The notes under the pieces are model-generated. The model was not told where the DNA came from and ran no database searches. It worked only from the letters and a program-made list of their open reading frames with translations. Source: Leeuwenhoekiella palythoae (lineage in GTDB: Bacteria; Bacteroidota; Bacteroidia; Flavobacteriales; Flavobacteriaceae). From it: a stretch of 64,000 nt of DNA. Both the position numbers and the translations under genes were made by a program. Each line of letters begins with the position of its first letter. Position 1 is the stretch's first letter. The DNA lies in assembly GCF_900130045.1 (NCBI RefSeq), contig NZ_FQXT01000001.1:248001-312000 (forward strand), read 5' to 3'. This document shows, in pieces, positions 1,390 to 28,572 of the stretch.

Positions 1390-2916
1390 CTACTGCTTTT
1401 GCTCAGGCTGAGCAAAAAGATCAAGATACGCCTGACCTAAAAATTCTGTAATCATACTTGCGGTCAAGCCCTCATAAGCGGTGTGGTTGATCGCAATATC
1501 GGCTGCCTTCCCATGTAAATAAACTCCAAAAATTGCCGCAGTTAAAGCATCATAGCCCTGAGCCATCAATCCTGTTATAATTCCCGTTAGAACATCACCA
1601 CTTCCACCGGTTGCGAGTCCGGGATTTCCAGTGTTATTTACGTAGTACTTTCCATCAAAAACGGTTATGGTATGCGCATCTTTTAGCACTAAAACGCAAT
1701 TGTATTTTTTGCTGAATGCTTCGGCTTTTTTCAACTTTTCAAAATCATCTTCCCACGTACCTATTAAGCGCTCTAGCTCTTTGGGGTGCGGTGTAAGTAC
1801 GCTATACTTCGGTAAAAACTCTAAAAATTCTTGATTTTCTGATAATATATTTAAGGCGTCAGCATCAACAACAAGAGGGATTTTATTTGCTTTTAAAAAT
1901 GTTTTTAAAGCTTGCTGAGTAATCTTTTCAGTCCCTAACCCGGGACCAACTCCTATAACCGTAGGAGCAAGATCAAATTGAATTTCTTCCAGGTATTTCC
2001 CGTTATATCTGTCAGCCAAAACCATTGCCTCAGGCAAACTTGATTGTAAAATAGGCAAGCCGTGCTGTGTAGTGTAAGCAGTCACGAGACCTGCTCCTGA
2101 GCTCAAAGCGCCTTTACAACTCAACACCGCAGCACCCGTTTTACCATAACTCCCGGTGATAAGTAATGCGTGACCGTAAGTGCCCTTATGACTAAATTTA
2201 GTACGCGGTTTATACATTTGTTGCGCTTCGGCTTTATCTATCAACTGGGCTTGTGTCTGCACCGAATTCATAAAATTTCGATCTAAACCGATATCTAGCA
2301 CCGTCCAATTGTTGATGTATTTTCCGCTTTGCGGAAGAAAAAACGCAAGCTTAGGCGTCTGAAAAGACAAGACGATAGTAGGCTTAATCACTTCAGAATC
2401 CTTGATATAAACATCAACGCCCATCCCAGATGGCACATCAATGGCCACCGTATAAGCTCCACTTTGGTTAATATTCACAAACAGCTGCTGCACCCATTTA
2501 GGTGCGGGCCGATTAATACCTATACCAAAAATGCAATCCACCACAAGGTCTTCTCTGTTTATCTGAGGCAAGTCGTCTTCTGATTTTAATACTTGAGGCC
2601 ATTTTCGGGTTACTTTTTTGAGCTCTTCTAATGCCAATAAAAAATCTTTGCTTCGGTTGTCGCTGTAATTCACCACATACACATCTACCGGATACTGATG
2701 CTCAACAAAATATCTTGCAATCACCAGACCATCACCTCCATTATTTCCTATTCCGCAAAAGATTTTGACCGGCACCGGTTGGCCTTGCAGCCGCTGGTGC
2801 ATAAACTCAAATGCATAACCGCCGGCACGCTCCATCAGATTATAAGAAGGAATGTTCTCGGCATTCTCAGTTGCTTTATCTGCTTGATAAACTTGCTCTT
2901 TGCTTAATATTTTCAT
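1390..2916 (-). CDS. nnr: Bifunctional NAD(P)H-hydrate epimerase / ADP-dependent NAD(P)H-hydrate dehydratase
   Basis: A 508-residue cytosolic metabolite-repair enzyme. The N-terminal half (to about residue 215) is the NnrE/YjeF_N epimerase, shown by IPSYNLMERAGG and the phosphate-binding CGIGNNGGDG at residues 54-63. The C-terminal half (from about 235) is the ribokinase-like NnrD dehydratase, shown by GSYGKTGAAVLSCKGAL, TPHPKELERL and the catalytic TGGSGDVLTG motif at 436-445. Together they epimerise and dehydrate damaged NADHX/NADPHX back to NADH/NADPH using ADP. Length is normal for the fused form. It is transcribed alone on the minus strand, divergent from the thr operon and convergent with the membrane-protein gene. 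Confidence 0.95.
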   Translation of the reverse strand: MKILSKEQVYQADKATENAENIPSYNLMERAGGYAFEFMHQRLQGQPVPVKIFCGIGNNGGDGLVIARYFVEHQYPVDVYVVNYSDNRSKDFLLALEELKKVTRKWPQVLKSEDDLPQINREDLVVDCIFGIGINRPAPKWVQQLFVNINQSGAYTVAIDVPSGMGVDVYIKDSEVIKPTIVLSFQTPKLAFFLPQSGKYINNWTVLDIGLDRNFMNSVQTQAQLIDKAEAQQMYKPRTKFSHKGTYGHALLITGSYGKTGAAVLSCKGALSSGAGLVTAYTTQHGLPILQSSLPEAMVLADRYNGKYLEEIQFDLAPTVIGVGPGLGTEKITQQALKTFLKANKIPLVVDADALNILSENQEFLEFLPKYSVLTPHPKELERLIGTWEDDFEKLKKAEAFSKKYNCVLVLKDAHTITVFDGKYYVNNTGNPGLATGGSGDVLTGIITGLMAQGYDALTAAIFGVYLHGKAADIAINHTAYEGLTASMITEFLGQAYLDLFAQPEQKQ

Positions 2917-3033
2917 CGGGAATAATTTCGGGTTTAGAATATTCGTAAGGAAAAGCCTTTGATTTCTATTTAATTAGTGATTTCTTGATAAAAAAAGTTT
3001 TCCTTGAATTATCCTCAAAAATCAATAATCTGG

Positions 3034-3064
3034 CTTGTGATTATGGGTAAAAATAATACTTTTG
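3034..3064 (+). promoter_or_regulatory. Probable promoter of the thr leader and operon
   Basis: A -7 box TACTTTTG at 3057-3064 matches the Bacteroidota consensus TAnnTTTG exactly, and a -33 box CTTG at 3034-3037 (three of four to TTTG) lies 19 nt upstream. A start near 3069-3072 would place the leader ORF about 15 nt into the transcript. Both boxes were read directly; activity is inferred. Confidence 0.65.
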
Positions 3065-3084
3065 AAAGCAACAGTTAAGCAGAA

Positions 3085-3151
3085 AATGAAAGCAATTAAC
3101 ACTATTACCACTTCTACTATCGCGACCACAGGTCTTGCGATTGCTTTCATT
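3085..3151 (+). promoter_or_regulatory. Nested RNA hairpins in the thr leader
   Basis: ATGAAAGCAAT (3086-3096, including the leader start codon) is the exact reverse complement of ATTGCTTTCAT (3140-3150); A3085-T3151 extends the pairing. Inside it lies a second hairpin: ATCGCGACC (3119-3127), loop ACA, GGTC (3131-3134), a 2-nt bulge, and GCGAT (3137-3141). The inner and outer stems overlap at 3140-3141. The Thr codons lie in the strand between the outer 5' arm and the inner hairpin. This looks like the pause or sequestering structures of a translation-coupled attenuator, but the exact role of each stem is inferred. Confidence 0.6.
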
Positions 3152-3187
3152 ATTATTACCCCTTTGGGGTATTCTTTTAACATATAA
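3086..3187 (+). CDS. thrL: thr operon leader peptide, Thr/Ile-rich
   Basis: A 33-residue ORF (ATG 3086-3088, TAA 3185-3187) directly upstream of thrA. Of 33 residues, 7 are Thr (6, 8, 9, 11, 14, 15, 25) and 8 are Ile (4, 7, 12, 19, 22, 23, 24, 33); the densest stretch is INTITTSTIATT at residues 4-15. That composition matches the regulatory amino acids of the classical E. coli thr attenuator, where the leader peptide senses charged tRNA-Thr and tRNA-Ile. It has an A-rich upstream region (AGCAGAAA) as expected for Bacteroidota and is preceded by a consensus promoter. It is not homologous in sequence to E. coli ThrL beyond composition. Translation is inferred; the position 70 nt before thrA and the composition make a chance ORF unlikely. 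Confidence 0.8.
   Translation: MKAINTITTSTIATTGLAIAFIIITPLGYSFNI
3157..3178 (+). terminator. Candidate thr attenuator terminator inside the leader ORF
   Basis: A 6-bp stem TACCCC (3157-3162) / GGGGTA (3166-3171) with loop TTT, followed immediately by TTCTTTT (3172-3178). It has the form of a short intrinsic terminator. Unusually, it lies within leader codons 24-31 rather than after the leader stop codon. Confidence 0.55.
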
Positions 3188-3257
3188 CTTCGGTACATCT
3201 CGTGTTTACACGACAAGCAACTTATTTTTATAAAAACTCATTTCAAACACTAAAGCC

Positions 3258-5696
3258 ATGCGTGTTTTAAAATTTGGCGGTACTTCAGTAGGAAGCGTCG
3301 CAAACATAAATCAAGTCATCAACATCGTAAAAAACGGTGCTCAAGATCAACATATAGCCGTTGTAGTTTCTGCGCTAGGCGGAATTACCGACTTACTTAT
3401 GCAAGCCGGAACCGATGCCAGCAATAAGGACGATTACAACACTGCCTTTAAAGACATCGAAGCCAAGCATATTGAATTTACACGAACGCTTATTCCTGAT
3501 AGCGATGAGGCCTTAGACGAGATTAAAAATTTACTCAAAAGCCTAGAGTCGCTTTTACAAGGCATTTACTTGATCAATGAACTTTCTCCAAAGACCGTTG
3601 ATAAATTATTAGCCTACGGCGAAATTTTATCTTCTTCGATCATTGCGCGTGCGATGTATGCGCAAGGTTTAGATGCTGTGCGAAAAGACAGCCGGGACTT
3701 GATCACCACCAACGATAAACACACCAAAGCCGGAGTAAATTATAAAGTGACCAACAGTCAAATTGAATATTATTTTACTAAGGCCAAACAAAAGATCACC
3801 GTGCTACCCGGTTTTATTGCCAGTACAGCAAACGGTGATACTACAACTTTAGGTCGTGGTGGTTCTGATTTTACCGCTGCGATCGTTGCAGCAGCGCTTG
3901 ATGTGGACCAAGTGGAGATCTATACCGACGTAAGCGGAATGTACACCGCTAACCCCAAAATGGTAAAGCAAGCAAAACCTATTGAAAGTATTTCGTATCA
4001 CGAAGCAATGGAGCTTTCACATTTTGGAGCTAAGGTTTTATATCCGCCTACGATCGTACCGGTGATGAGTAAAAACATCCCCATACGCATTAAAAATACC
4101 TTGCAACCCGAAGAACCCGGAACGCTTATTCACAACCAAAACGGACAAAGCACCAATCCTATCAAGGGCTTAAGCAATATCAGTAATGTGGCTTTGCTTA
4201 CTCTTGAAGGAGGCGGAATGGTCGGAATTCCTGGTATCAGTAAGCGTTTGTTTGAAACCTTAAGCAATCAGGGAATCAACATCATCTTGATCACGCAAGC
4301 TTCTAGCGAACACAGCATTTGTTTAGGGGTTATGGAAGACGATGCCGGCAAAGCTAAAAATGCTATTGACGAAGAATTTGAATATGAAATTTCTCTGAAC
4401 AAAATCGATCCGTTAACGATCGAGATCGGTTTGAGTATTATTGCACTTGTTGGCGATCAAATGAAAAGCCATCAGGGCATCAGCGGTAAAATGTTCAGTA
4501 CGCTTGGTAAAAACAACGTAAACATTCGTGCTATTGCTCAAGGAGCGAGTGAGAAGAATATTTCTGCAGTGATCGCTCAAAAAGACGTTAAAAAGGCCTT
4601 AAACAGCCTTCATGAGCGTTTCTTTGAAGCGCAACGCAAGCAATTGAACTTATTCATAACGGGAGTTGGAAATGTAGGTGAAAAACTGCTGAACCAAATT
4701 CAACAACAGCAAGAGTACCTAAAGAAACAGCTTAACATCAATATGCGTGTGCTGGGATTGAGCAATTCTCGCAAAATGCTTGTGGATGAAAGCGGGATCG
4801 ACTTGCAAAACTGGAGCGCACTTTTAGACGCAGGAGAACCTGCGACACTAGATGGCTTTCTAGATCACGTGGTTGAGCTTAATCAACGAAACAGCATCTT
4901 TGTGGATATCACCGCTAACGCTGATGTAGCCGATATGTACGGGAAATACTTAAAACAAAGTGTTGCTGTAGTAGCCTGTAACAAGATCGCTGCTGCTTCT
5001 GATTTCAAAAATTATAGCGAGCTGAAACGCTTAAGTAAAGCCTATAATGCACCCTTATTGTTTGAAACTAACGTAGGTGCAGGACTGCCTATAATCGACA
5101 CCTTAAACAACCTTATTGCTTCAGGAGATCGTGTAAATCGCATTCAGGCGGTATTATCGGGAAGTTTGAATTTTGTGTTTAACAATTTTAAATCCGGCGA
5201 TAGTTTCCACGATGTGGTGCAAGCCGCAAAAGCCGAAGGATTTACTGAGCCTGATCCGCGTATTGACTTGAGCGGTGTAGATGTTGCGCGTAAGATTTTG
5301 ATCCTGGCACGTGAAAGCGGACTCAAAATCAATCTGGAAGATATTGAGAATGAACCATTCTTAACGGAAAACAACTTGAACAGTTCTGACGTTCCGCACT
5401 TCTTTGAAACTTTAAAAGAAGACGCAGCACATTTCGAAAAGCTAGTCGCTCAAACCGAAGCTAAAAACTGCCGTTTAAAGTATGTTGCACAACTTGATAA
5501 CGGCAAAGCAAGCGTAGGACTTCAAGAAATTCCTGAAGGTCATCCATTTTACAATCTTGAAGGTTCAGATAACATCGTGTTGTTCTTTACAGACCGCTAC
5601 CCTACTCAACCTATGCAGATCAAAGGTGCTGGTGCCGGTGGTGACGTAACCGCTTCAGGATTGTTTGCAGACATTATAAGAACAGCCACTTTTTAA
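3258..5696 (+). CDS. thrA: Bifunctional aspartokinase / homoserine dehydrogenase
   Basis: An 812-residue fused enzyme catalysing the first and third steps from aspartate to threonine. The aspartokinase domain starts with KFGGTSVGS at residues 5-13 and includes TLGRGGSDFTAA; two ACT-type regulatory segments follow (GIPGISKRLFETLSNQGIN and SGKMFSTLGKNNVNIRAIAQ, roughly residues 310-460), the usual site of threonine feedback. The homoserine dehydrogenase domain starts near residue 464 with LFITGVGNVGE and carries NVGAGLPIIDTL, QAVLSGSLNFVFN and the C-terminal GAGAGGDVTASGLFADI. Length equals the standard fused ThrA. It is the first structural gene after the Thr/Ile-rich leader, and thrB follows after 9 nt. 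Confidence 0.97.
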   Translation: MRVLKFGGTSVGSVANINQVINIVKNGAQDQHIAVVVSALGGITDLLMQAGTDASNKDDYNTAFKDIEAKHIEFTRTLIPDSDEALDEIKNLLKSLESLLQGIYLINELSPKTVDKLLAYGEILSSSIIARAMYAQGLDAVRKDSRDLITTNDKHTKAGVNYKVTNSQIEYYFTKAKQKITVLPGFIASTANGDTTTLGRGGSDFTAAIVAAALDVDQVEIYTDVSGMYTANPKMVKQAKPIESISYHEAMELSHFGAKVLYPPTIVPVMSKNIPIRIKNTLQPEEPGTLIHNQNGQSTNPIKGLSNISNVALLTLEGGGMVGIPGISKRLFETLSNQGINIILITQASSEHSICLGVMEDDAGKAKNAIDEEFEYEISLNKIDPLTIEIGLSIIALVGDQMKSHQGISGKMFSTLGKNNVNIRAIAQGASEKNISAVIAQKDVKKALNSLHERFFEAQRKQLNLFITGVGNVGEKLLNQIQQQQEYLKKQLNINMRVLGLSNSRKMLVDESGIDLQNWSALLDAGEPATLDGFLDHVVELNQRNSIFVDITANADVADMYGKYLKQSVAVVACNKIAAASDFKNYSELKRLSKAYNAPLLFETNVGAGLPIIDTLNNLIASGDRVNRIQAVLSGSLNFVFNNFKSGDSFHDVVQAAKAEGFTEPDPRIDLSGVDVARKILILARESGLKINLEDIENEPFLTENNLNSSDVPHFFETLKEDAAHFEKLVAQTEAKNCRLKYVAQLDNGKASVGLQEIPEGHPFYNLEGSDNIVLFFTDRYPTQPMQIKGAGAGGDVTASGLFADIIRTATF

Positions 5697-5705
5697 GCCG
5701 AAAAA

Positions 5706-6635
5706 ATGAAAGAAATACGTGTCTTTTCACCGGCGACTGTCGCAAACGTAAATTGCGGTTTTGATGTTTTGGGTTTTGCTCTGGATGGTCTGGGTGACGA
5801 AATGGTAATTCGTAAAGTTCCTGAAAAAGGAATCAAGATCACAGAGATCACCGGAGCCGAGTTACCCTTTGAAGCCAAAGAAAATGTAGTAGGCGTTGCC
5901 GGCTTAGCTATGGTTGAAGCTTTGGATCTTGATTATGGTTTTGAAGTAGAAATTCATAAAAAAATAAGACTTGGCAGCGGTGTGGGAAGCAGCGCAGCAA
6001 GTGCCTCAGGAATTGTTTTTGGAATCAATCAATTTCTGGATGAACCCTTATCTAATTTAGAACTTACTGAATTTGGTATGAAAGGGGAAGCGGTAGCCAG
6101 CGGAAATGAACATGCTGATAATGTTGCGCCGTGTCTTTACGGTGGGTTTACATTAATAACCGGTTACGAACCTTTAAAAATTGTTTCCGTACCGGTTCCT
6201 GAAGAATTGTATGTGACGATTATTCATCCCCATATAACGATCAAAACAAAAGAAGCTCGGGAGATTTTACCTAAAGAAGTTTCGCTCAAAAATGCAATCA
6301 AACAAACCGGAAATCTGGCCGGATTAATTGCCGGTCTTTATACTAAAGATTACGACTTGATCGCTTCTAGCGCCACCGATGTTTTGGTAGAACCATACCG
6401 TAAAAATCTGATTCCTGATTTTGATTTTTACCGAGAGACTGCATTAAAAAATGGCGGAATTGCTTTTGGAATTAGTGGCTCCGGACCTTCGATGTTTACA
6501 CTAAGTAAAGGATTGCAAAATGCTGGTGCAGTTGAATTTGCGTTAAGAAAAGCATTGAAAGAGAAAAATATGCGTAGTGATAGCTATGTGTCTCCCGTAT
6601 CAAAGCACGGAAACAGAATTTTAGAAAAGAATTAA
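5706..6635 (+). CDS. thrB: Homoserine kinase
   Basis: A 309-residue GHMP-family kinase that phosphorylates homoserine with ATP in the threonine pathway. The N-terminal VNCGFDVLGFALDGLGDEM substrate motif, the phosphate-binding loop LGSGVGSSAASASG near residues 88-101, and the C-terminal GISGSGPSMFTL motif are all present. Length is normal for bacterial ThrB. It starts 9 nt after thrA, so the two are cotranscribed and probably controlled by the upstream leader. Confidence 0.96.
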   Translation: MKEIRVFSPATVANVNCGFDVLGFALDGLGDEMVIRKVPEKGIKITEITGAELPFEAKENVVGVAGLAMVEALDLDYGFEVEIHKKIRLGSGVGSSAASASGIVFGINQFLDEPLSNLELTEFGMKGEAVASGNEHADNVAPCLYGGFTLITGYEPLKIVSVPVPEELYVTIIHPHITIKTKEAREILPKEVSLKNAIKQTGNLAGLIAGLYTKDYDLIASSATDVLVEPYRKNLIPDFDFYRETALKNGGIAFGISGSGPSMFTLSKGLQNAGAVEFALRKALKEKNMRSDSYVSPVSKHGNRILEKN

Positions 6636-6721
6636 ACAGTTTATTTCGTGCGATTTGGAATATTTCCTAGTTGTTGAAATTGTATAATTGGCACGAATAC
6701 ACATTCAATATTTATAGAAAA

Positions 6722-8020
6722 ATGAACTTTTATAGTTTAAATGGTAAAGCACCAGAAGTAGGTTTAGAGGAAGCTGTTGTACGTGGAATTGCACCAGATA
6801 AAGGGTTATATTTCCCAGAGTCGATCACACCGCTTCCGCAATCATTTTTTGATAACATAGAAAACCTGTCAAATAACGAAATCGCATTTACTGCAATCCG
6901 CCAATTTGTTGATGGGGTTATTCCTGACGAAGCCTTAAAAGATATCATTGCAGATGTGCTTTCTTTCGATTTCCCTGTTGTAGAAGTTGAAGAAAATATT
7001 GGTACGCTAGAACTTTTTCACGGCCCTACAATGGCGTTTAAAGATGTAGGCGCTCGATTTATGGCACGCTGTCTGGGCTATTTTTCAGCTCAAAAAGAAA
7101 CCCAAGAACCGGTGACGGTTTTGGTAGCTACCAGTGGCGATACCGGCGGTGCTGTTGCTCGTGGTTTTCTAAATGTGGAAGGTGTTGATGTTGTGATTCT
7201 TTATCCAACCGGTAAAGTGAGCGATATTCAAGAAAAACAGTTAACTACTTTGGGCGCTAATATTACAGCACTGGAAGTTGATGGCGTTTTTGACGATTGC
7301 CAAGCCATGGTAAAAACAGCATTTTTAGATGAAGAAATCACTTCTCAACGCAAACTTACTTCGGCCAACTCTATAAATATTGCGCGCTGGTTGCCGCAAT
7401 TATTCTATTTTCTTTTTGCATATAAACAAGCAAAATCAAAAGGTAAAGAATTGGTTTTTTCTGTACCGAGCGGAAACTTTGGGAATATTTGTGCGGGAAT
7501 GGTTGCCCATAAATTAGGAATGCCGGTAAAGCATTTTGTAGCTTCGGTAAACAGTAATGATATCGTTCCTGAATATTTAAAAACAGGAGAATACAAGCCA
7601 AAACCTTCGGTTGCAACGATCAGTAACGCGATGGATGTAGGCGATCCTTCAAACTTTATTAGAATTCAGAAGTTATTCAACAACGATCTGGAAGCCCTTT
7701 CGCAGAAATTATCCTCTTTTTCATACTCTGACGAGGAAACCAAGGCTGCGATGCAAAAGATTTATGCCGAAACCGGTTACATCGCAGATCCTCATGGCGC
7801 AGTTGGTTATTTAGGCTTGAAACATTACCTAAAAGACCATCCTGATGCTTATGGTATTTTCTTAGAAACCGCACATCCAGTTAAGTTTTTACCGGTTGTG
7901 AATCCTGTGATTGATGCAGAAATTGAAATTCCTGAGCAGATCAAAGCGGTTATGGACAAAGAAAAAGACGCGATCGCTATTAAAAATTACGACGAATTTA
8001 AGTCGTTTTTGTTAAGCTAG
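6722..8020 (+). CDS. thrC: Threonine synthase
   Basis: A PLP enzyme converting O-phosphohomoserine to threonine. I start it at the ATG at 6722, giving MNFYSLNGKAPEVGLEEAV and 432 residues, the usual form of this family; an in-frame TTG at 6671 would add 17 unconserved residues. The motif FHGPTMAFKDVGARF holds the PLP-binding lysine at about residue 107, followed by VATSGDTGGAVARGF for phosphate binding and SANSINIARWLPQ. It lies 86 nt after thrB in the same orientation, completing a thrABC operon. No terminator is visible in the gap, so leader control probably reaches it. Confidence 0.96.
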   Translation: MNFYSLNGKAPEVGLEEAVVRGIAPDKGLYFPESITPLPQSFFDNIENLSNNEIAFTAIRQFVDGVIPDEALKDIIADVLSFDFPVVEVEENIGTLELFHGPTMAFKDVGARFMARCLGYFSAQKETQEPVTVLVATSGDTGGAVARGFLNVEGVDVVILYPTGKVSDIQEKQLTTLGANITALEVDGVFDDCQAMVKTAFLDEEITSQRKLTSANSINIARWLPQLFYFLFAYKQAKSKGKELVFSVPSGNFGNICAGMVAHKLGMPVKHFVASVNSNDIVPEYLKTGEYKPKPSVATISNAMDVGDPSNFIRIQKLFNNDLEALSQKLSSFSYSDEETKAAMQKIYAETGYIADPHGAVGYLGLKHYLKDHPDAYGIFLETAHPVKFLPVVNPVIDAEIEIPEQIKAVMDKEKDAIAIKNYDEFKSFLLS

Positions 8021-27318: not shown

Positions 27319-28572
27319 ATGAGTATAGTGAAAATAGACGAAAAGAAACGACAAAAGGCTGTAGACTCTTACAAACTGGTGGGTACGCTGCCTGAGAAGA
27401 GTTACGACAATATCACACAGATCGCCTCCTATATCTGCGGCACTCCCATTGCATTGATCACTATGCTTGATTACAATCGTAATTTTTTAAAATCGCATTA
27501 CGGAGTTCCGTTTAACGAGTCTCCTCGTGAAATTTCATTTTGTACGCACGCAATTCAAACGCACGATCCCATTTTTATCATTCCTGACGCGCGCGAAGAT
27601 GACCGATTTAAAGACAATCCGCTGGTTACTGGCCCCATGAAAGCCATTTTTTATGCGGGCGTTCCGCTAGTGGATAAAGGCGGGCACGCTTTAGGAACTC
27701 TTTGTGTATTTGATCACGAGCCCCGTACGCTCAACGAGCATCAGGTGAGTACATTGATCGCTTTGGCCAGTCAAGTCGTCAATCTTTTTGAACTCCGCCG
27801 CCAGAATATTGAGAATAAGGCGCTTCAAAAAAACCTTCTCAAAAAAAATAGTCTTCTTAAAGAATTTGCCGGAGTAGTTTCTCACGATATGAAAATGCCG
27901 CTAGCGAATATTATCACCACTACAGATATTCTTAAGGCAAAATACAAAGAGCTTTTAGATGAAAAAGGGCTCGATTATCTTAACTACCTTAAAAGTTCTT
28001 CCTTTTCGCTAAGCGAATATATTAGCGGAATTTTGCAACATTATGAGAGTGATAATTTAACTATAGATCAGCGAGACTCGTTTGACATTCACGATCTTCT
28101 TGAGGAAGTTGAAGATATGCTCAACCACGATTATAAAACCGTTATTCATCTCCCGGAAGCCAATCATATCATCTCCTGTAATCGTGCTGCTTTGCATCAG
28201 ATTTTTATAAATCTTTTAGGCAACAGCATCAAATACAATGATAAAGAAGAACCTGAGATCACAGTCACATTTACCGAAGACAGTGATTTTTATCGATTTG
28301 AAGTTATTGATAATGGGATTGGAATTCCGCAGGATAAAATCGATAAAATTTTTGAACTCTTTTCCATCGTAGCTTCTAAAGACAAAAACGGAAACCGTGG
28401 CAATGGGATTGGCTTATCTACCGTAAAGAAACTAGTCGCCAACTTAGGCGGGCGCATCAGTGTAGCTTCGGTGGAAGGTGAAGGAAGTACGTTTAGCTTT
28501 TCTGCTAGAAAACAAGATATCCCAACACAAATCGCAGGTCCTGAGAATGACACTTCCGCATTAAAAAATTAA
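27319..28572 (+). CDS. Soluble GAF-domain sensor histidine kinase (second of a tandem pair)
   Basis: A 417-residue kinase with the same order as its upstream neighbour: GAF (about residues 20-160) ending FYAGVPLVDKGGHALGTLCVFD, H-box VSHDMKMPLAN with His189, N-box INLLGNSIKYNDKE, DNGIGIPQDK and GNGIGLSTVKKL. The two are clearly paralogous along their full length, so a tandem duplication is likely. The last 20 residues (after SARKQ) are an unconserved tail. No regulator is encoded nearby; the two kinases may signal to a distant regulator or to each other. Confidence 0.93.
   Translation: MSIVKIDEKKRQKAVDSYKLVGTLPEKSYDNITQIASYICGTPIALITMLDYNRNFLKSHYGVPFNESPREISFCTHAIQTHDPIFIIPDAREDDRFKDNPLVTGPMKAIFYAGVPLVDKGGHALGTLCVFDHEPRTLNEHQVSTLIALASQVVNLFELRRQNIENKALQKNLLKKNSLLKEFAGVVSHDMKMPLANIITTTDILKAKYKELLDEKGLDYLNYLKSSSFSLSEYISGILQHYESDNLTIDQRDSFDIHDLLEEVEDMLNHDYKTVIHLPEANHIISCNRAALHQIFINLLGNSIKYNDKEEPEITVTFTEDSDFYRFEVIDNGIGIPQDKIDKIFELFSIVASKDKNGNRGNGIGLSTVKKLVANLGGRISVASVEGEGSTFSFSARKQDIPTQIAGPENDTSALKN

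Follow-up and report, generated by a model that had tools for sequence, protein, structure and literature searches.

A threonine- and isoleucine-rich leader reading frame running into a short hairpin upstream of thrABC in Leeuwenhoekiella palythoae and other Flavobacteriaceae

Among the closest described systems is the thr leader of gamma-proteobacteria (Rfam RF00506, Thr_leader), which resembles the locus presented here in having a short ORF rich in Thr and Ile codons directly before thrABC. ThrL is the threonine operon leader peptide of E. coli, and PF08254 is presumably the Pfam family of the thr leader peptide. Another leader of E. coli, tnaC, works through Rho-dependent attenuation, where the arrest is caused by free tryptophan acting through the nascent peptide. 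Regarding the Bacteroidota, which make little ordinary use of Shine-Dalgarno sequences, an account of attenuation across bacteria by Lopatovskaya et al. in 2010 reportedly treats Bacteroidetes. The absence of Shine-Dalgarno sequences is also mentioned in a study on the 5' cis-regulatory regions of F. psychrophilum (PMC9723704), which states strong clues for leader-peptide attenuation before amino-acid operons of this species; its passage on this attenuation names neither a thr leader nor a stop-codon hairpin. For a flavobacterium, leader-peptide attenuation before such operons is, in general terms, already in print. Among the literature matches listed, judged by title and the start of the abstract, no paper dealt with a thr leader of Bacteroidota; such leaders may already be listed in Lopatovskaya et al. 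(2010) or in the supplement of PMC9723704.

The window analysed here is a 64-kb stretch (64,000 nt) of the genome of Leeuwenhoekiella palythoae, Leeuwenhoekiella being a genus of Flavobacteriaceae, and all window features described below lie on the plus strand. It carries thrABC, headed by thrA (3258..5696), which encodes a bifunctional aspartate kinase-homoserine dehydrogenase (Pfam AA_kinase, ACT and Homoserine_dh) and is followed by thrB, for a homoserine kinase of the GHMP kinase type (5706..6635), and thrC, for threonine synthase (6719..8020), both assigned with Pfam. The closest named thrA is that of L. blandensis MED217, with 98% identity in the best segment. The leader ORF (3086..3187) has 33 codons, from the ATG at 3086 to the TAA at 3185-3187, leaving 70 nt (3188-3257) before the thrA start at 3258, and encodes the peptide MKAINTITTSTIATTGLAIAFIIITPLGYSFNI, with seven Thr and eight Ile. 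An earlier sequence-only reading of the window had given this length, composition and distance, all correctly, and had claimed a promoter before the ORF, which is indeed found there and is of the Bacteroidota type. This promoter (3035..3064) consists of TTG at 3035-3037, a spacer of 19 nt and the -7 box TACTTTTG (3057-3064), which has the Bacteroidota form TAnnTTTG, the whole arrangement fitting the Bacteroidota consensus. PMC9723704 likewise gives TAnnTTTG as the -7 box. A scan for E. coli-type promoters returned only 9-of-12 matches, at 2884-2913 and 2985-3012 of the plus strand.

RF00506 gave no match in the window at its 55-bit cut-off, none for positions 2900-3400 at E ≤ 5, and none at E ≤ 1 for L017 and L023, two further leaders of the family that were compared with it, and the 33-residue peptide matched 0 Pfam families at E ≤ 0.001. 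An ATG-initiated ORF with at least 15 Thr and Ile codons arose in 4 of 5000 dinucleotide shuffles of 3020-3257, so that the window alone is suggestive and it is the comparison with relatives that decides.

For this comparison, 135 regions upstream of thrA were taken from Flavobacteriaceae, 13 of them from the genus of the window and most others from different genera; the sample is biased to closer relatives, because the lowest-scoring thrA matches (from G235 down) were mostly left out. A hairpin named H1, of the form ACCC(C)-loop-GGG(G) and lying no further than 260 nt from thrA, occurs in 121 of the 135, against a mean of 1.8 and a maximum of 6 in shuffled regions. When the first three bases of H1 are read as ACC (Thr), the frame thus fixed is open for at least 20 codons upstream in 118 of the 121 regions, compared to 38 and 72 for the other two frames, and its last 20 codons consist of 24% Thr and 16.5% Ile. 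In the 13 codons before H1, threonine is encoded by ACA (172), ACT (161), ACC (78) and ACG (54), and isoleucine by ATT (239), ATC (50) and ATA (21); every synonymous codon is used, indicating that selection acts on the amino acid and not on the letters. An ATG in this frame is missing from four of the 121 regions; the remaining 117 include 106 with a TAnnTTTG box lying no more than 45 nt 5' of such an ATG, the expectation being 7.3 when the same 45 nt are shuffled. In a second, partly overlapping set of named loci (78 minus one fragment, from Leeuwenhoekiella, Dokdonia, Maribacter, Arenibacter, Formosa and others), an ATG-initiated ORF in frame with H1 was present in 71 of 77.

The leader element is lacking in 13 or 14 of the 135 thrA genes. 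The 14 regions without the H1 pattern include L124, which has a variant H1 with a loop of six bases and was counted as lacking, and several others in which the sequence upstream of thrA is short or differs; L012, from the genus of the window, matches the pattern and has no real leader ORF there. The alignment proposed in the sequence-only reading, where a kept start and Thr/Ile run with third-position variation would speak for translation, came out in favor of a translated Thr/Ile leader, through the conserved frame and its varying Thr and Ile codons. As this comparison of sequences shows, the leader ORF is not a chance ORF and has been selected as a Thr- and Ile-rich peptide, and it is very probably a translated cis-regulator that senses Thr and Ile.

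Regarding the position of the putative control codons, the codon preceding H1 is Thr in 63 and Ile in 46 regions (109 of 121), and the second codon before H1 is one of the two in 98. In the window, H1 is TACCCC-TTT-GGGGTA (3157..3171), its ACC being Thr25, and the codons that run into it are Ile22-Ile23-Ile24-Thr25 (3149..3160), where relatives also have Thr or Ile at the codons before H1. The comparison thus shows Thr and Ile residues concentrated in the final codons, which run into H1. Ribosome stalling had earlier been expected at codons 6-15; the strongest Thr/Ile conservation lies instead in the last codons before H1, 22-25 in the window, and it is these that probably exert control.

In 103 of the 121 regions, the stop codon either lies across the H1 loop or begins at most 4 nt past the G-run. 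Twelve members of the window's genus carry H1; in eight of them, one being the window, the stop begins 15 nt past the G-run, and in three others 7-9 nt past it, L012 being the twelfth. The distant stop of those eight counts against the switch proposed below. As the three C-G pairs of H1 are nearly invariant, the data from within the family neither support nor oppose its pairing. Support comes from another family, f30, whose regions L282, L283 and L285 have the arms of H1 swapped (ACGGG-GUAA-CCCGU and alike), with the stop codon in the loop.

Besides H1, other structures were found in the leader region. A long stem specific to the genus (3086..3150) pairs the start region AUGAAAGCAAU (3086-3096) with AUUGCUUUCAU (3140-3150) and folds with z = -5.5 in the window, and similar start-region stems occur in other members of the genus. 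Inside the ORF, the stem-loop H0 (ATCGCgACCacaGGTcttGCGAT, 3119..3141) precedes the last Thr/Ile run; compensatory differences among genus members were seen by eye, and the stretch bearing H0 folds more than 1.5 standard deviations better than shuffles in 49 of 121 regions. After H1 follow an AU-rich, G-poor spacer (3172..3199) containing a short pyrimidine tract, CTTC at 3188-3191, and, in many members, the stem-loop H2, which in the window is TCGTG-TTTA-CACGA (3200..3213). H0 contributes two pairs (columns 45-53 and 40-58) to the 60 top covarying pairs and H2 contributes three, in a list that also holds many non-pairs, and no stacked helix other than H0 and H2 was seen among them.

In 43 relatives outside the genus, chosen by eye after 11 badly aligning sequences of the 54 in the main group were dropped, 91.5% of the H2 cells pair and seven of its eight pairs have changed on both sides, H1 and H2 together having 34 double-change cells against 9.1 in shuffles. 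With all 54 sequences the result is weaker, as 83.6% of the H2 cells pair and six of eight pairs have double changes; the double-change cells (50 against 15.9) and the covariation score (0.226 against 0.114) were reached in 0 of 500 shuffles. Two of the five covariation measures are unremarkable for all 54, namely the number of double-change pairs (7 against 6.0, 168 of 500 shuffles) and the pair types (20 of 500). The stretch bearing H2 folds clearly better than shuffles (z < -1.5) in only 46 of 121 regions, so H2 is not universal. It could be thought that the conserved thing is a structured RNA which binds a protein or a ligand, with the ORF as a by-product, in agreement with the nearly invariant H1 and the covarying H2; this is highly improbable, as a single frame is open and Thr/Ile-rich while its synonymous codons vary freely, and no Rfam family, riboswitches and T-boxes included, reaches its cut-off in the 64-kb window.

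A covariance model, R1, was built from the 43 sequences, none of them from the genus of the window. Searched against the 64 kb, it matches positions 3134-3228, H2 included, with E = 2.9e-5, this copy being the sole match in its own genome at E ≤ 0.01. Over 149 genomes of the family, R1 gave 58 matches in 57 genomes, of which 49 sit 0-300 nt upstream of a listed thrA start and four others are followed by a thrA start in their locus. Thus, of the 54 matches examined among the 58, 53 lie just upstream of thrA, the exception being G031:C9 with E = 0.008; many of the 58 are the model's own source sequences, the window's not among them. The model is insensitive, as 92 of the 149 genomes have no match, including one from the window's genus, G010, where the leader (L005) is easily recognized by eye. 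A second R1 match in the window, at 28115-28217 on the plus strand, has a non-significant E of 0.85 and is taken as chance. No second H1-type leader was found among 39 loci examined in the own genome, 15 of 45 places from one scan being left out; 6 of the 39 show a short ORF that ends close to a CCC..GGG hairpin, the thr copy alone having a TAnnTTTG box as well. L032, a second candidate place, was rejected as it sits in a long coding frame.

With respect to transcription termination, one scanner found terminator-like sites in 3 of 121 thr intervals, compared to 11 of 12 regions upstream of hisG and 9 of 12 upstream of ilvD, taken from the own genome and relatives; the thr intervals were scanned from about 30 nt before H1 to thrA, with 0.1 sites (at most 1) in shuffles, and the his and ilv regions over 330 nt without a shuffle control. 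Other versions of the scanner gave 4 of 121 (first), and 4 of 121 with 7 of 12 for hisG and 8 of 12 for ilvD (second), the second having lost real terminators because stems were extended into the T-run. H1 as a general terminator was rejected on these counts. The three thr regions with a site are the window copy, L040 and L111, with stems of 5-6 pairs, and in the window H1 is followed by a short T-run (TTCTTTTA), which may make it a weak intrinsic terminator in this copy.

The thr attenuator proposed in the sequence-only reading is therefore sustained in part. Its translated leader stands, a short ORF with codons for the amino acids produced by the operon lying before thrABC and being kept as a coding sequence; a classical terminator is absent in nearly all regions examined, the window being among the three exceptions with a weak site, and no competing helix appears among the top covarying pairs. 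Classical attenuation as in E. coli, where alternative hairpins form and a stalled ribosome prevents an intrinsic terminator, H1 or H2, before thrA, would agree with the T-run after H1 in the window, and the his and ilv leaders of the own genome and three distant thr leaders (L292, L296 and L297) clearly look of this type. For the thr leaders of the family it is nevertheless unlikely, considering the scarcity and short stems of the terminator-like sites, an H2 that is mostly AU-rich with no U-run after it, and the lack of any stacked helix beyond H0 and H2 among the top covarying pairs. Compared to the gamma-proteobacterial thr leader, 118 of 121 regions here are without a terminator-like site and the hairpin lies at or near the stop codon, and, judged on sequence, the leader is designed differently from E. 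coli thrL.

The interval after H1 is poor in G (8.1% G and 17.2% C over the 121 regions). C exceeds G in 116 of 121, compared to 25 of 58 control upstream regions, and amounts to double the G content or more in 68 of 121 versus 1 of 58, all controls coming from a single genome, the window's own; YC dinucleotides are only slightly raised (6.9 versus 5.7 per 70 nt). The G-poorness may merely keep the RNA unstructured. Together with the presence of a rho gene in the genome, it favors, as we infer, a mechanism similar to tnaC, in which RNA is masked from Rho or exposed to it. A Thr/Ile-responsive switch on the thrABC transcript, with a translated leader and preferably a Rho-type read-out, is the reading adopted here, with an about even chance of being correct.

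In this proposed switch, a shortage of charged Thr- or Ile-tRNA would halt the ribosome on the last codons, where its front edge covers H1. H1 would then be blocked, the RNA just downstream masked, and RNA polymerase would continue into thrA. With an ample supply of both amino acids, the ribosome would finish and depart, H1 would form, and the exposed G-poor RNA downstream would lead to premature termination, most likely by Rho by analogy with tnaC; H1 may add a polymerase pause. The front edge of a ribosome reaches some 12-15 nt beyond the codon being decoded, and this geometry puts a ribosome on the last Thr/Ile codons over H1, which could then form only without a parked ribosome. The proposed likeness to tnaC is that a ribosome stalled where the leader ORF ends shields the RNA past the stop from Rho; the differences are that halting would come here from a lack of charged tRNA and that the role of Rho is inferred only. 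The odds that the read-out is termination with no conserved intrinsic terminator appear balanced, and the naming of Rho as the terminating factor is more tentative. An antiterminator formed by the GGGG arm of H1 and the pyrimidine tract beyond it folds in many members; it was rejected because the three f30 members have the arms of H1 swapped, a stalled ribosome would there cover the GGGG, and C-rich tracts remain downstream.

Control could also act on translation, with the leader ribosome altering structure or re-initiation at the thrA start instead of transcription. Across 103 distinct intervals among the 121, the start of H1 is 75-108 nt ahead of thrA, with H2 between in many, which would suit such a role, though this distance is long for direct re-initiation and the surroundings of the thrA start codon show no structure above chance (mean z 0.10; one of 121 below -1.5), making translational control quite unlikely. 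A hairpin spotted by eye at the thrA start codon proved no better than shuffles.

To look beyond the family, the comparison was extended to 25 regions upstream of thrA in other families belonging to the same order and class. A Thr/Ile-bearing ORF ending at an H1-type hairpin occurs in eight of them, from seven families (L280, L281, L284, L286, L288, L289, L298 and L302), and the swapped-arm hairpin in three, those of f30. Another three, all from one distant Bacteroidia family, f53, are classical: L292 (MIFNTSIITTIIITTGINQRG), L296 (MTSNNTIITTITTTGVKHGGR) and L297 (MYNSTIIITIIITTGRNLAEE). These share with the window a Thr/Ile-rich ORF before thrA and differ from it by terminators of 11-13 pairs with a U-run, by a segment complementary, by eye, to the 5' arm of the terminator, and by matches to the Rfam Thr_leader of 36.0, 31.7 and 36.5 bits, respectively, below the cut-off of 55, so that the Thr_leader family may extend to members that score under this threshold. 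Given these weak matches, the independent origin of the leader considered in the sequence-only reading is no more than one possibility. In the other 11 regions, no such leader was recognized with confidence. The H1-type and the f53 leaders indicate at least two designs of thr leader in the class, the classical one being seen here in a single family. It is possible, at somewhat less than even odds, that Bacteroidia hold a distinct switch, in which control codons enter a stop-codon hairpin that reports a parked ribosome and the transcript is cut with no terminator, by Rho or by hairpin-stabilised pausing, and that this switch replaced, or was replaced by, the classical thr attenuator within the class.

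With the thr leader, control of threonine synthesis by a sensing ribosome can be tested in Bacteroidota across a whole family. If the terminator-less design is true, it would be a new route from a stalled ribosome to a transcription decision, and such leaders will have escaped searches modelled on E. coli. The apparently classical his and ilv attenuators in the same genome also allow a side-by-side comparison of two designs, as they likewise place a leader peptide with cognate codons (HHHH; Ile/Val/Leu) before the operon and differ from the thr leader in that both precede intrinsic terminators. The his leader (L199), on the minus strand of contig C9 upstream of hisG, reads MRKTALHHHHFYSRTQAR and is followed by the terminator AACCCGTTTGAGCTTTTCAAACGGGTTTTCTGTTT, and an HHHH run was seen in four of five his upstream regions inspected. 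The ilv leader (L187), upstream of ilvD and on the minus strand of contig C8 some 10 kb ahead of the window, reads MKTAAILVRSISVINYS with the terminator CCTTCCGTTAATCTGGAAGGTTTTTTTTT, and a segment past its stop codon (GCGGAACG) could pair with the 5' arm of this terminator.
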